Shown here in pieces: positions 18,602 through 26,144 of a stretch of 40,406 nucleotides of DNA (positions are counted from its first letter, which is position 1; each line of letters opens with the position of its first letter). The stretch covers positions 1 through 40,406 of the forward strand of contig NZ_JADEXE010000023.1 in assembly GCF_015207265.1 (NCBI RefSeq), read 5' to 3'. Below the pieces are notes generated by a model. That model did not search any database. It was not told the DNA's origin and saw only the letters and a program-made list of their open reading frames with translations. This DNA comes from Nodosilinea sp. LEGE 07298 (GTDB lineage: Bacteria; Cyanobacteriota; Cyanobacteriia; Phormidesmidales; Phormidesmidaceae). A program made the position numbers and the translations under genes.

Positions 18602-19012
18602 TTGAAGATACATTGCATACCCTTGGCACAAGAGACCTTAGACGAGCAAGACAACGACCTCAGAAACCTGCTGAAGAAGGCCGCCCTGATTGCGGTAATG
18701 CTGGTGATCGCCGTTGTGCTGAGCGTCGTTGCGGCGCGCTACTCCCAGGCGTCTGATCCCTATATTCATCAGGTGCTGTCCATGCAGGGTAACAGCACCC
18801 GAGGCGAAGCTATTTTTAGAATGAACTGTGCTGTATGCCACGGCATTGAAGCGACTGGAGAAGTGGGGCCAAAACTAGTAGGGGTGTCTGATCACAAGAC
18901 TAAGGTGGGTCTAATCAAACAGGTCATTAGTGGCCAGACCCCGCCAATGCCTCAGTTTCAGCCCGAGCCTCAAGATATGGCTGACCTGCTTATTTATTTA
19001 GAGCGGCTGTAG
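18602..19012 (+). CDS. cytM: Cytochrome cM
   Basis: CytM is a low-abundance c-type cytochrome of cyanobacteria, implicated in adjusting electron flow between photosynthesis and respiration. The protein has one N-terminal membrane anchor (about 27-46), SDPYIHQVLSMQGN, heme motif CAVCH (76-80), axial-ligand methionine in PPMPQF (M116) and the C-terminal helix MADLLIYLERL, which matches the CytM pattern. The start is uncertain: TTG 18602 gives 136 residues, TTG 18623 gives 129, and the first ATG (18698) would remove part of the anchor. None has a clear ribosome site. Monocistronic, upstream of psbA. Confidence 0.85.
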   Translation: MKIHCIPLAQETLDEQDNDLRNLLKKAALIAVMLVIAVVLSVVAARYSQASDPYIHQVLSMQGNSTRGEAIFRMNCAVCHGIEATGEVGPKLVGVSDHKTKVGLIKQVISGQTPPMPQFQPEPQDMADLLIYLERL

Positions 19013-19339: not shown

Positions 19340-20401
19340 ATGACCACTACTCTACAGCGGCGCGAAAGCGCCTCCCTGTGGGAGCAGTTTTGCCAGTGGG
19401 TCACCAGCACCGAAAACCGCCTGTATGTAGGCTGGTTCGGCGTGTTGATGATTCCTACCCTGCTCGCTGCTACCGCTTGCTTCGTCGTAGCCTTCATCGC
19501 TGCACCCCCCGTCGACATCGACGGCATCCGTGAGCCCGTCGCTGGCTCTCTGATGTACGGCAACAACATCATCTCCGGTGCGGTTGTGCCTTCCTCGAAC
19601 GCCATTGGCTTGCACTTCTACCCCATCTGGGAAGCCGCTTCCCTCGATGAGTGGCTGTACAACGGTGGCCCTTACCAGTTGGTAATTTTCCACTTCCTCA
19701 TTGGCGTCTTCTGCTACATGGGTCGTGAGTGGGAACTGAGCTACCGCTTGGGCATGCGCCCCTGGATCTGCGTTGCTTACAGCGCACCCGTGGCCGCTGC
19801 CTCTGCTGTATTCCTCATCTATCCTCTGGGCCAAGGTTCGTTCTCCGACGGCATGCCTTTGGGTATCTCGGGTACCTTCAACTTCATGCTGGTCTTCCAG
19901 GCTGAGCACAACATTCTGATGCACCCCTTCCACATGCTGGGTGTGGCCGGTGTGTTCGGTGGTTCCTTGTTCTCCGCTATGCACGGTTCGCTGGTGACCT
20001 CTTCACTAGTGCGTGAAACCACCGAGACCGAGTCTCAGAACTACGGCTACAAGTTTGGCCAAGAAGAAGAGACCTACAACATCGTGGCAGCCCACGGCTA
20101 CTTCGGTCGGTTGATCTTCCAATATGCCAGCTTCAACAACAGCCGCTCTCTGCACTTCTTCTTGGGTGCGTGGCCTGTGATTGGCATCTGGTTCACCGCT
20201 CTCGGCATCAGCACGATGGCGTTCAACCTGAACGGGTTCAACTTCAACCAGTCGATCCTTGACTCACAGGGTCGTGTGATTGGCACCTGGGCTGACGTGA
20301 TCAACCGTGCCAACCTGGGTATGGAAGTGATGCACGAGCGCAATGCTCACAACTTCCCCCTCGACCTAGCTACGGCTGAGGCTCCTGAAATCATCGGCTA
20401 G
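19340..20401 (+). CDS. psbA: Photosystem II D1 protein, E130 form
   Basis: D1 is the photosystem II reaction-centre subunit that binds P680, pheophytin, QB and most of the Mn4CaO5 cluster. All key residues are present: Y161, D170, H190, H198, H215, S264, H272, H332, E333, H337, D342 and A344. Residue 130 is Glu (GREWELSYR), the form linked with high-light D1 copies; low-light copies carry Gln. The C-terminal extension after A344 is nine residues (TAEAPEIIG), giving 353 residues instead of the frequent 360. CtpA would remove it. Five membrane helices. Single gene with its own promoter and a strong terminator. Other psbA copies probably exist elsewhere. Confidence 0.99.
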
Positions 20402-20432: not shown

Positions 20433-20463
20433 AAAAAGCGCTCCCTTCGGGGGGCGCTTTTTT
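20433..20463 (+). terminator. psbA terminator
   Basis: AAAAAGCGC, TCCC, loop TTCG, GGGG, GCGCTTTTTT forms a stable stem with a T-tail starting 31 bases after the psbA stop. Confidence 0.9.
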
Positions 20464-20747: not shown

Positions 20748-21239
20748 ATGTCCACTGCTGTCATTCCATCTGTAGCTCAGTTACGGTCTGAACTTGGCGA
20801 CTTTAGCAGTATTGTTTGTTTCAGAGCCTTAGTTGTTGGCACCGAAGAAGTCTTAGGTGAAAAGGCCGCTGCGATCGCGCTGATTGGTGCTGGTCGCCGT
20901 CGGGGCCGCCAAGTAGCAGAGCAATTGGGCATTGCGGCAAAAGCTATGCCTCTCGATGAACTGGTGAACATTCTTCAATCTGCGCTGGGTAAAGATGGCA
21001 CCCGCCTCTGCATTGTTGAGAAGATTGTCGAAACTGGAGAAACGATTTTAGTTTACTGCCGAGAAACCATTTGTTCAGCTGATGAACCTGAAGGGTCTCC
21101 CCGCAAACTAACCTTTACGCTGGGTGCAGTTCAGGGTGTGATGGAGAGTGTTACAGGCAAGCGTTTGCGAGGTAAGCAAATAGAATCTGTTCTGCGAGGC
21201 AGTGCCTTTGATGTAATCGAGTTTGAAGTGATCGGCTAA
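20748..21239 (+). CDS. V4R-like (hydrocarbon-binding fold) protein
   Basis: A 163-residue soluble protein. The order of an N-terminal helix pair (RALVVGTEEVLGEKAAAIAL, GRRRGRQVAEQLG), a helix with ALGKDG, a beta hairpin with ETILVYCRETIC, then LGAVQGVMESVTGKRLRG and a closing strand fits the 4-vinyl-reductase/heme-NO-binding-like fold, which binds small hydrophobic ligands. Related cyanobacterial proteins occur in a photosystem II assembly gene cluster in Synechocystis. The domain call is from pattern only. It follows psbA and precedes a cyanobacteriochrome GAF gene, so a role near pigment or photosystem biogenesis is possible but inferred. Confidence 0.6.
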   Translation: MSTAVIPSVAQLRSELGDFSSIVCFRALVVGTEEVLGEKAAAIALIGAGRRRGRQVAEQLGIAAKAMPLDELVNILQSALGKDGTRLCIVEKIVETGETILVYCRETICSADEPEGSPRKLTFTLGAVQGVMESVTGKRLRGKQIESVLRGSAFDVIEFEVIG

Positions 21240-21664: not shown

Positions 21665-22213
21665 GTGCAACCGTCTTTTCCTCAAAAACTCAATGCTGCC
21701 TCAGATTTGTACGCAGATCCTGGTTTGAAACGGGTGGTTGCCCGTCTTGCTACGACCCTTGAGCGAGATAATTTGGTTACGCAGGTTACGCGCGATCTGC
21801 AACAAAAACTCGGGGTCGATAGAGTGCTGCTATATTACTTCTATCGCCATTGGAAAGGGCGGGTTACCTTTGAAGTCTTGAGCGATCCACAATTTTCTAT
21901 TTTTGGTTCGACTGGGCCAGATGAGTGTTTTAACGGAGATTATGCTGCAATGTACCTGGCTGGACGGGTGCGGGCGATCGCAGATATTGAAGCTGAGCCC
22001 ATTGCAGAGTGCCATCGCGATTTTCTTCGCAATATGCAGGTACGCGCTAATTTAGTTGTGCCGGTGTTAATTCCCGATGGGTTATGGGGGTTGCTGGTGG
22101 CTCACCATTGTCAAGGGGTTCATCCTTGGGCGGAGGCCGATATTGTGGCGATGCAGCAGGGGGCGGAGACTTTAGCGATGGCTCCTTCGGTGCGTGGTGG
22201 TGTAGATATGTAG
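21665..22213 (+). CDS. Stand-alone DXCF-type cyanobacteriochrome GAF protein
   Basis: A 182-residue protein that is essentially one GAF domain (about 30-172) with the marks of bilin-binding cyanobacteriochromes: LERDNLVTQVTRDLQQKLGV, VDRVLLYYFY, AGRVRAIADIEAEPI, the chromophore cysteine-histidine pair C116-H117 (AECHRDFL), VRANLVVPVL and LWGLLVAHHC. It also has D86-E87-C88-F89, the DXCF motif whose cysteine forms the second, reversible bilin link in blue/green sensors. No kinase, GGDEF or other output domain is fused. GTG 21665 is supported by GGGAG seven bases upstream. It probably acts by partner binding, or is a light-sensing or bilin-storing module; spectra and output are unknown. Confidence 0.85.
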   Translation: MQPSFPQKLNAASDLYADPGLKRVVARLATTLERDNLVTQVTRDLQQKLGVDRVLLYYFYRHWKGRVTFEVLSDPQFSIFGSTGPDECFNGDYAAMYLAGRVRAIADIEAEPIAECHRDFLRNMQVRANLVVPVLIPDGLWGLLVAHHCQGVHPWAEADIVAMQQGAETLAMAPSVRGGVDM

Positions 22214-22300
22214 GTTTATGGCATTCCTCTTGTCAGCACGTCTGTAATAAGCTGTTTGAAGCGACGGTACAATAGAGGCAACCTGCCTGGGGAGGTGAGC

Positions 22301-22582
22301 ATGGTTCAAGCGACCGACTACCTTTATGTGGTGCGAGATGATGACATTCTCAATGGAGAACCCATTATCCGTGGCACCCGTACACCGATTAGGGCCATTG
22401 TTGAAACGTGGCGAATGGGCATTGCACCGGAGGAAATCCCTAAAGGGATGCCTCACCTGACTCTTGGGCAGATTTTTGGTGCGTTAACTTACTACAGCGA
22501 TCACCAGGAAGAAATCAATCAATATATTGAGCAAAATCGTATTTCTGATGATTTGATTGATCCGCTAGTTCGAGATTTATGA
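22301..22582 (+). CDS. DUF433-domain antitoxin-like protein
   Basis: A 93-residue protein with the DUF433 pattern: a beta strand (YLYVVRDDDILNGEPIIRGTRTPIRAI), the helix IVETWRMGIAPEEI, then LTLGQIFGALTYYSDHQEEI. DUF433 proteins are wHTH-like and are normally antitoxins paired with a DUF5615 PIN-like toxin just downstream. ATG 22301 is supported by GGGGAGG; a longer frame from 22256 lacks such a site. The expected toxin is missing: an ATGA-overlapping frame at 22579 stops after 11 codons. It therefore looks like an orphan or relic antitoxin at the left edge of the AT-rich island. Confidence 0.75.
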   Translation: MVQATDYLYVVRDDDILNGEPIIRGTRTPIRAIVETWRMGIAPEEIPKGMPHLTLGQIFGALTYYSDHQEEINQYIEQNRISDDLIDPLVRDL

Positions 22583-22646: not shown

Positions 22647-22838
22647 ATGATTAAACCCATTGCGTTTCAGATTGGTGCGGATGTTGCTGATGCGATTAAT
22701 TAGGCTTCTTCTACGCAAAAGATTCGCCAAAAAGTAGCTTCGAATAGTTTGACTGCCGCTGTTCCTATTAAGCCGACAGATCGCTTTTCAGGGATTGCAA
22801 AGAGCATTGATTTTGGATTTGATCATAATAAAACATGA
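22647..22838 (+). pseudogene. Interrupted small ORF coupled to the DUF4062 gene
   Basis: A frame of 64 codons from ATG 22647 to TGA 22838 is interrupted once, by TAG at 22701-22703. Its final TGA overlaps the ATG of the next gene (ATGA at 22835-22838), the signature of translational coupling. The reading (IKPIAFQIGADVADAIN, stop, then ASSTQKIRQKVASNSLTAA and on) matches nothing I know. It may be a decayed gene, a short regulatory frame, or chance. Confidence 0.3.
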
Positions 22839-25276
22839 TTAGCCGACATTCTACTCGGAAAATTCTTACTGTATTTTTGGCATCTCCTGGCGATCTTTCT
22901 GAGGAAAGGCGAGTTGCACGAGAAGTTGTCAAAAAAGTCAATCGTATAGTGAGTTCATCTATTGGCTGGCAAATAGATTTAAGGGAAGGAGAAAATGCTT
23001 TGCCAGGCGCTGGAAGACCTCAAGAGCTTATCAATAAAGACATTGATTCATGTGATCTTTTTTTAGGTGTTTTATGGAGAAGATGGGGTTCTTCAACTGG
23101 AGAGTATTCTTCAGGATTCGAAGAGGAATTTGAAAGAGCAAAGCAAAGGCACCAAAAAAATCAACATCCAACCATGTGGTTGTGCTTCAAAGAGGTAGAA
23201 ATTGAACAAAAAAAAGATCCTGGAGAACAGCTTAAAAAAGTGTTAGCGTTTTACGACACTCAAGTCAGCTCAAAAGAATTTCTTTTCAAGGAGTTCAAAA
23301 ATTCAGAAGACTGGCGAGATAAATTGGATGAATGGCTTTTGAGACATGTACTTAATTTTAGCCAAGAGACAAGTCAGGATGAGCAGTTTGAAGCTAATAT
23401 AGAAATTTCTTCCCCCGCAATTAGTAATTTTTCTGCCATCCCTAATCAGACTCCTTCAGAAGTAGATAGCGACGCAGCCACAACACAGTTGATTAATCTT
23501 GTTACCCATGTTTCTCATTCTTTAAGTTCTCCAAAAGAATCCAATCCTTTAAACAGATTTGAAATAGCTCGCTTATGCTTATTCTCCAAAACCTTGCTAT
23601 CAAATCAATATTACGATGACTTTTTGAGTAATCATGAAATACATCTTCTCTATCAGTATCGGGATCAATTAGAACCAACTATCGAAGAGATTCTTCAGTT
23701 TACAAGAACACTGATTGATGATGATAATAATCTAAAGGTTGGATGGTATTGGCTTCAAGGTCTGGACGTAACAACTTTATTGTTTTACTTAGCGCAAGCA
23801 AATAATGACTCTGATCTTCGTATCCAAGCAATAAAAATACTTGAAGAAGCAAAAGTTTGTTTGACAATAGAGCCGAACAATCGTCTTAAAATTCGGAACG
23901 CAGTTTTAGTTGACAAATCAGTACCTGTCAGGATTGCTTGGTTATCTTACCTTAGTTCATTAGGCAGGCTTGAAGATCTGCCAATAGTCAAGAGTGCCTG
24001 TAACGATGAAGATCTACTGATATCTTCTGCAGCTGAATCTGCCAGAATTTGCATTCTTTTAAGACACAATTTAAATGAAGCTGTAGTAGAGTTGGTCGAA
24101 AACAATCTTCCTATCACAAAACTAATAGTTGAAACTATCAAAAAGCAGAGCGATTTTTTAAGTAATGCAATTATGCTCAAGGCTCTGTCAAGTCAAAATC
24201 CGGAAATTCGCTTGCTCATTCTGAAAGAATTAATAGGCAAAAATATTTTAACGGAAAGACAAATTGATGACTTAATTAATGACGATTCAGTGCTAATAAA
24301 GAAAATTTGCTACGAAGCTCTTTTGAAGATGGGCAGAAATATCAGCTTAGATGAAATCAAAAAAGCTTTGGGCGAAGATTTAATTTTTCATGTTGGAAAT
24401 TCACCATTACTAGAAGCTTACTATCGTATGCTTCCAGTCGAGAAACTTCTAGAAGAAATTTACTCACCTTCAATTTATGCAGCTAATGCATATAAAGCAT
24501 TGGCTACAGACCATTTTGAAACCGTTTCAGATCGCATCAGGCTCGACTTGGAAGACGACTTTTCGAATTTAGAAATGCAGATTATAAGCAAGCTTGAGAT
24601 TCAATTTAAAGAAATACTTTCCTTAAACGAAGGTGAACAGGTAAATCAGATTAATGAATTAATTGAATCTTTCAAGAAAACATTTAGAAAATATAGCAAA
24701 TATGAATTCATAAAAGCCGCGTTGTCAGGAATTGTTTTGCATGGAAATGCCCAAGATATTAGATGGGGTAGAAAATATTTAGAAGAATCTGATAAGTTTA
24801 TTGATTTCAAGTTGGAGGCAATAAAAATAGTAGAAATTTATGGTGATGAATCTGATGCTATCATCCTAGTAAACATCGCAAAAAATAGCTATGGAGATCT
24901 TTCAGACTTGGCGGCCAAAGTGGCTGTGAAACTTTCGCCAGGTATTGATGGTGCAGCATTTGATCTTATAAACTCGGAAAGCTCAAACTTGATCAGAATA
25001 GCTATGCAATCCTTTGAGGATAGAAATGGAGATGAAGGTGAAGTTTTTAGAGCTTTAGAGCCATTCCTGAAGAAGGGAAACTTTTATATGCATGATCAAA
25101 TTCTAAAGTACTTTTTCAAAAAGTTTTCCTTTCAAGAACTTGAAGAATTCTTGGCAAAATATCTCCTCGAGGGGCAATATTACTACCATATTGTCTGCTG
25201 GCTTGACAGGATACTGTATGCACCACCTCGTTACAAACAGATGTATTTGCAAAAGCTCACTCATAAACTTAACTAG
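22835..25276 (+). CDS. DUF4062 domain protein with long helical-repeat C-terminus
   Basis: An 813-residue protein. Residues 9-120 form a DUF4062 domain (VFLASPGDLSEERRVAREVV; CDLFLGVLWRRWGSSTG; SGFEEEFERAK with E96-E98 and E100), which has a flavodoxin-like fold resembling TIR and nucleoside-deoxyribosyltransferase domains. After a linker (about 185-215), residues 220-800 are alpha-helical and include HEAT-like units (SVPVRIAWLSYLSSLGR; NPEIRLLILKELIGK; DSVLIKKICYEALLKMGR). DUF4062 often precedes a STAND NTPase, but no P-loop is visible here. It is markedly AT-rich compared with its neighbours, indicating transfer. Its 3' end faces a TM-macro gene ten bases away. A role in phage defence, as enzyme or sensor, is inferred. 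Confidence 0.8.
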   Translation: MISRHSTRKILTVFLASPGDLSEERRVAREVVKKVNRIVSSSIGWQIDLREGENALPGAGRPQELINKDIDSCDLFLGVLWRRWGSSTGEYSSGFEEEFERAKQRHQKNQHPTMWLCFKEVEIEQKKDPGEQLKKVLAFYDTQVSSKEFLFKEFKNSEDWRDKLDEWLLRHVLNFSQETSQDEQFEANIEISSPAISNFSAIPNQTPSEVDSDAATTQLINLVTHVSHSLSSPKESNPLNRFEIARLCLFSKTLLSNQYYDDFLSNHEIHLLYQYRDQLEPTIEEILQFTRTLIDDDNNLKVGWYWLQGLDVTTLLFYLAQANNDSDLRIQAIKILEEAKVCLTIEPNNRLKIRNAVLVDKSVPVRIAWLSYLSSLGRLEDLPIVKSACNDEDLLISSAAESARICILLRHNLNEAVVELVENNLPITKLIVETIKKQSDFLSNAIMLKALSSQNPEIRLLILKELIGKNILTERQIDDLINDDSVLIKKICYEALLKMGRNISLDEIKKALGEDLIFHVGNSPLLEAYYRMLPVEKLLEEIYSPSIYAANAYKALATDHFETVSDRIRLDLEDDFSNLEMQIISKLEIQFKEILSLNEGEQVNQINELIESFKKTFRKYSKYEFIKAALSGIVLHGNAQDIRWGRKYLEESDKFIDFKLEAIKIVEIYGDESDAIILVNIAKNSYGDLSDLAAKVAVKLSPGIDGAAFDLINSESSNLIRIAMQSFEDRNGDEGEVFRALEPFLKKGNFYMHDQILKYFFKKFSFQELEEFLAKYLLEGQYYYHIVCWLDRILYAPPRYKQMYLQKLTHKLN

Positions 25277-25286
25277 CACTTTGATA

Positions 25287-26144
25287 TCAGAAAACAGCAG
25301 TTTTCAAAAAGTCCTCTAAATCATATAAATTCACGTATTCTAGATCTTGAGGAGGGATAACTATTGTTAGTTTGCGAGCAATAAATTCCTCTTTTGAACC
25401 AATTAAAAATGACGTGATTATCAATTTTACCAATACTACTCTTGGGAGATTTGTTCGAGCGAGATTTGAACCAATTACTGGAATAGATATTTGTTCGCCA
25501 TGTCCTTTTAAGCGAACCTGCTCCCAAAGGTTACTTAGAGAATGCCAAATGCAATCAGCATTGGATTGAATCTTTAAATCGTTTCCCATAGAGCCGTAAG
25601 CGACAAGGAAATAGCGCCTATCAAAATTTCCTAATGAAATAGTTGTTCCAATAGGATAACGACGTTGATTACCTTTGAGTTTGCTGAGATCTTCTTTCCC
25701 ACGTTCTTTATGAGTTTTCAATGCCTCTTCAATATCTGTATCTAACTTTATTTTTTCACTTTTATAAACTTTCAACAAAAACTGCCCTTGAACGCTGGGT
25801 TCCGCAATTATCTCTCCTATTTCGGTATCAAAGACATCATTGAATCCTACTACTAAGTGTCCTTTTTCTTGGAAAATATCGCCCAGCTTTATTTCAATTG
25901 TTGAGTTGGGCGAACTTAGTTTTCTGGAAATAGATTTTTTAGGAAAACGCAGGAAAATGGAAATTAGCATTGAAGATACTAATAGGCTAATATAGCCACT
26001 CAAACCCAATGTAATTGCGTCAGGTATAAACAGTCCTAATGGTTCTATCAACAACCATAAAAAGCCAAAAATACTTATAGAAGTGGTTGCGATTCTCCAA
26101 ATCCCAATAGTCAAAAAAATTTTCAGATATATCTGGAAATTCAT
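25287..26144 (-). CDS. Two-TM macro-domain protein, ThsA-like (type II Thoeris effector)
   Basis: A 285-residue protein: two membrane helices (about 10-34 and 43-65), then a divergent macro domain (about 80-285). The segments EIKLGDIFQEKGHLVVGFND, VFDTEIGEIIAEPSVQGQF, YPIGTTISL, RYFLVAYGSM and ISIPVIGSNLARTNL match the Thoeris ThsA macro family (DUF6430 type) as I know it. In type II Thoeris a TIR protein makes a histidine-ADP-ribose signal that this domain binds, and the membrane part then damages the cell membrane. No classical TIR gene is adjacent; the convergent neighbour carries DUF4062 instead. AT-rich, ATG start, no clear ribosome site. Domain call firm, system assignment inferred. Confidence 0.75.
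   Translation of the reverse strand: MNFQIYLKIFLTIGIWRIATTSISIFGFLWLLIEPLGLFIPDAITLGLSGYISLLVSSMLISIFLRFPKKSISRKLSSPNSTIEIKLGDIFQEKGHLVVGFNDVFDTEIGEIIAEPSVQGQFLLKVYKSEKIKLDTDIEEALKTHKERGKEDLSKLKGNQRRYPIGTTISLGNFDRRYFLVAYGSMGNDLKIQSNADCIWHSLSNLWEQVRLKGHGEQISIPVIGSNLARTNLPRVVLVKLIITSFLIGSKEEFIARKLTIVIPPQDLEYVNLYDLEDFLKTAVF

Follow-up and report, generated by a model that had tools for sequence, protein, structure and literature searches.

The output of cyanobacteriochromes (CBCRs) is normally understood from the kinase, GGDEF or chemotaxis domains fused to them. A sensor family that is widely conserved and has no output domain poses the question of how its signal is passed on, and this question is raised by a small gene in the window, that is, the whole 40,406-nucleotide stretch of Nodosilinea sp. 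LEGE 07298 analysed here. The predicted product, of about 20 kDa, would be a natural minimal DXCF photoswitch.

21665..22213, + strand: stand-alone DXCF CBCR, 182 aa, GTG start, single GAF domain
21920..21931, + strand: DXCF motif D86-E87-C88-F89 with the second cysteine C88, aligned with DPCF of TePixJ
22010..22015, + strand: predicted canonical bilin-binding site C116-H117, aligned with ECH of TePixJ

Predicted fold and putative bilin-binding residues

In a Pfam search with the 182-aa protein, GAF (PF01590, E 5.8e-18, residues 34-173) was the only match. CBCR GAFs were the best matches in a comparison with solved structures. The AlphaFold2 model (pLDDT 87.6, with low values for residues 1-15) was used in a Foldseek search, in which the top matches were CBCR GAFs and engineered derivatives of them, including TePixJ and RcaE; the predicted fold is thus that of a CBCR GAF. 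In DXCF GAFs, the canonical Cys, usually as Cys-His, is located on the helix that precedes the ANLVVP strand, and C116-H117 was found at this place. The second Cys belongs to an Asp-Xaa-Cys-Phe motif, represented here by D86-E87-C88-F89. In the alignment with TePixJ (3vv4), C88 of DECF lay over the Cys of DPCF, and ECH containing C116-H117 lay over the canonical ECH. Furthermore, C88, F89, C116 and H117 were invariant in 116 stand-alone sequences, and a gene for a PcyA-family bilin reductase is present in the source genome.

The first-pass annotation had described a single GAF domain with C88 and C116-H117 and no output domain, and this description agrees with both Pfam and the TePixJ alignment. 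Its designation of a minimal stand-alone DXCF CBCR can be retained: judging from the aligned and invariant Cys and His residues, the protein is very probably a bilin-binding light sensor. The blue/green DXCF GAF of TePixJ (3vv4/4glq) shares the fold and the places of the DXCF and Cys-His residues. However, it is a single domain within a methyl-accepting chemotaxis protein, whereas the window CBCR has no output domain and belongs to another clade.

Conservation and origin of the stand-alone family

Orthologs were sought in 84,980 species genomes and in related genomes; once duplicates had been removed, about 115 distinct sequences of 150-200 aa, from many cyanobacterial genera, were left. Except for a few incomplete or disrupted copies, the stop-to-stop frames around the orthologs measured approximately 165-267 aa, and neither a fused ortholog nor an output domain was present among the orthologs found. 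In a phylum sample, a stand-alone copy was detected in 57 of 386 genomes (matches with E < 1e-45). The GTG start was kept from the source genus out to Nostocales, and dN/dS among close relatives was 0.07-0.25, a range from which the gene is judged to be under purifying selection. Because of these two features and the 100% conservation of C88, C116 and H117 in the 116 sequences, the open reading frame is not a product of chance.

A maximum-likelihood tree was constructed from stand-alone and multidomain CBCR GAFs of the source genome and its relatives together with TePixJ and RcaE, and was rooted at the midpoint. Forty-seven stand-alone sequences and L194 formed one group (support 100/100, stem of 0.95 changes per site), apart from the multidomain CBCR GAFs. 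The stand-alone sequences had been selected by similarity cut-offs, so that fused members too divergent for these cut-offs may have been missed. The family is old and widely conserved, and it seems to have a single origin.

In the source genome, the other 30 matches to the CBCR GAF all sit in open frames of 549-2380 aa. The claim that a stand-alone CBCR is unusual is therefore right. The same long, multidomain-sized frames would fit the idea that the gene arose by recent truncation of a multidomain CBCR, but the well-supported stand-alone clade spanning many genera, the purifying selection and the conserved start codon refute such a recent truncation, which we regard as scarcely credible.

Several residues, namely R34, Y58, Y60, T68, S82-T83-G84, N90 and I176, were conserved in the stand-alone family and not in other DXCF GAFs. 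These positions could be candidates for an interface, a pocket of the family's own or colour tuning, and the family-specific changes could also alter or abolish the photochemistry. L194 (G015:C5:70400-71050) is a second, divergent stand-alone DXCF copy of 179 aa with 48% identity, in a genome that has the usual copy too. Broken or truncated stand-alone genes were seen at L074 (G003:C1:564363-564731), G021:C85:7710-7964 and L076, and the gene is therefore being lost in some lineages.

No description of this clade was found in the literature covered on stand-alone or GAF-only CBCRs, most subscription journals being outside its scope. Seven DXCF GAFs of Anabaena PCC 7120 are said to have been the subject of Ma et al. 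in 2012. The CBCR class itself is already known; the interest lies in an output-less family that is old, widely kept and possibly iron-controlled.

Relationship to psbA and the V4R-like gene

The CBCR gene had been proposed to be tied, through its upstream neighbours, to photosystem biogenesis.

19340..20401, + strand: psbA (D1), TIGR01151; the genome contains seven full copies
20433..20462, + strand: intrinsic terminator after psbA
20748..21239, + strand: neighbour with a predicted V4R fold, 163 aa (AlphaFold2 and Foldseek)

Pfam gave no match for the 163-aa protein, even at a loose threshold. Its AlphaFold2 model (pLDDT 84) was matched by Foldseek to the V4R domains of PoxR and MopR, TRAPP Bet3 and MJ1460; therefore, the term V4R-like holds at the level of the predicted fold. 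A local psbA-V4R-CBCR module, in which the sensing of light or bilin would be coupled to the biogenesis of photosystem II, would be consistent with this modelled V4R fold and with the arrangement of the three genes on the same strand, in which psbA lies 1.3 kb and the V4R gene 0.4 kb from the CBCR gene (425 bases in the latter case, with no convincing gene between). In addition, psbA and the CBCR gene are divergent neighbours in a single genome of the Nostocaceae (G392, L143), and psbA probably adjoins the CBCR gene at L045 too, where psbA is cut by the locus edge.

These points are outweighed by several others. The terminator separates psbA from the downstream genes. Within the genus and outside it, CBCR orthologs were found without the psbA and V4R neighbours. 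Six genomes of the genus (G031, G032, G033, G034, G044 and G045) have both the CBCR and the V4R gene, and in each of them the two were located on separate contigs. In the relative G021, the psbA-V4R DNA was 86-88% identical to the window up to 21241, where the match ended, and the CBCR gene of this genome was a remnant on another contig. Since seven full psbA copies are present in the 7.25-Mb source genome, chance psbA neighbours are likely; by a rough estimate, about one would be expected among 126 loci, and the two lineages with such a neighbour, in which the orientation of psbA differs, thus represent no clear enrichment. These results indicate that the module is mostly refuted and very improbable. 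The suggested check on conservation of the gene pair went against it, a functional link of the CBCR with psbA or the V4R gene is not supported on present evidence, and the adjacency appears accidental.

Upstream of psbA, at 18602-19012 (+), lies a gene for a cytochrome c resembling CytM; the protein has a CxxCH motif and a hydrophobic stretch near its N terminus.

Neighbours in relatives and possible control by FurA

A gene-neighbourhood search across the loci revealed no general recurrent neighbour of the CBCR gene, and any partner would therefore be unlinked. Clade-specific neighbours were ndhH and a gene for a MidA-like methyltransferase in Nostocales, and a hydrolase gene in Microcoleus and its relatives. 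In 13 loci, from Nostocales where named, the family member directly followed ndhH on the same strand.

In PCC 7120, ndhH is alr3355 (PMC8147232; PMC12923008). Because the Nostocales members follow ndhH, the ortholog in this strain is most likely Alr3356, an assignment based on gene order rather than on sequence. The gene alr3356 carries the description 'similar to phytochrome' and has been reported to encode a cyanobacteriochrome and to be a direct target of FurA; its transcript rose 3.94-fold when furA was turned off, FurA bound in vitro, and the gene is under FurA control alongside nblA (PMC4788461). Alr3356 thus resembles the window protein in being a CBCR GAF protein, and its locus tag comes next after that of ndhH, as in the Nostocales loci. 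Its chromosomal neighbours, on the other hand, are unlike those of the window CBCR, and FurA control was shown for Alr3356, whereas no match to the FurA consensus was found in the window when up to 3 mismatches were allowed. The single GAF domain, the absence of an output domain and the membership of one clade were found for the CBCR and its orthologs; this finding does not extend to Alr3356 itself.

An AT-rich element, AATAAATTACTATATAAAT, precedes the start by a few tens of bases at L029 (5936-5954) and at the same place in seven other Nostocales loci, and it is conserved only in this order. It resembles the FurA consensus AAATAAATTCTCAATAAAT with one extra base and may simply be a −10 region. 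By analogy with Alr3356, the CBCR of the source species might also be controlled by FurA. We tentatively suggest, as a possibility, that an ancient output-less DXCF clade, freed from FurA repression under iron shortage, integrates blue/green light and iron status through light-dependent binding to an unlinked partner. Because FurA control has been reported for Alr3356, a connection between light and iron could be tested directly in a strain amenable to genetics.

Proposed mode of action

In DXCF domains, the canonical Cys anchors phycocyanobilin, and the second Cys becomes linked to C10 and contributes to the isomerisation to phycoviolobilin; light breaks the second link, so that a blue-absorbing dark state gives rise to a green-absorbing product (PMC11284453). 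By the same chemistry, C116 of the window CBCR would most likely anchor phycocyanobilin, and C88 would, in the dark state, form a second link to the bilin at C10 and promote the formation of phycoviolobilin. The expected result is a photoswitch from violet/blue to green-teal.

No output domain was found in any ortholog, and FurA control of Alr3356 alongside nblA has been reported (PMC4788461). Both observations would also suit a bilin binder without a signalling role, such as a sink, a filter or a photoprotective protein, made once FurA repression is lifted. We consider this explanation unlikely, since the full conservation of the DXCF Cys, the canonical Cys and the His is more in keeping with a tuned photocycle than with binding alone.

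Signalling in trans is the most likely mode of action because there is neither an output domain nor a general recurrent neighbour. The light state of the CBCR would alter its dimerisation or a partner-binding face, and the altered protein would control an unlinked protein. A comparable case is PixD, a BLUF-only cyanobacterial protein that releases PixE in the light (PMC5812497); the CBCR might likewise hold and release its partner. PixD also consists of a single photosensory domain without an output domain, but it is flavin-based and of an unrelated fold, and the likeness is therefore one of mechanism only and not of membership. Taken together, the protein is a conserved single-domain DXCF CBCR, most likely orthologous to Alr3356, that would probably bind phycocyanobilin, switch between violet/blue and green-teal states and signal in trans.

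Genes downstream of the CBCR gene

A DUF433 antitoxin-like gene (PF04255) is located at 22256-22582 (+); what follows, at about 22648-22704, is no more than a short, stop-interrupted remnant of a partner gene. Farther downstream, a DUF4062-HEAT protein is encoded at 22835-25276 (+; PADLOC PDC-S60, 6.5e-28), convergent with and 11 bp from the gene for a ThsA-type macro domain protein at 25287-26144 (−; PF20016, E 4e-56; PADLOC ThsA1, 5e-70). These two genes may form a Thoeris-like pair for defence that lacks the usual ThsB.
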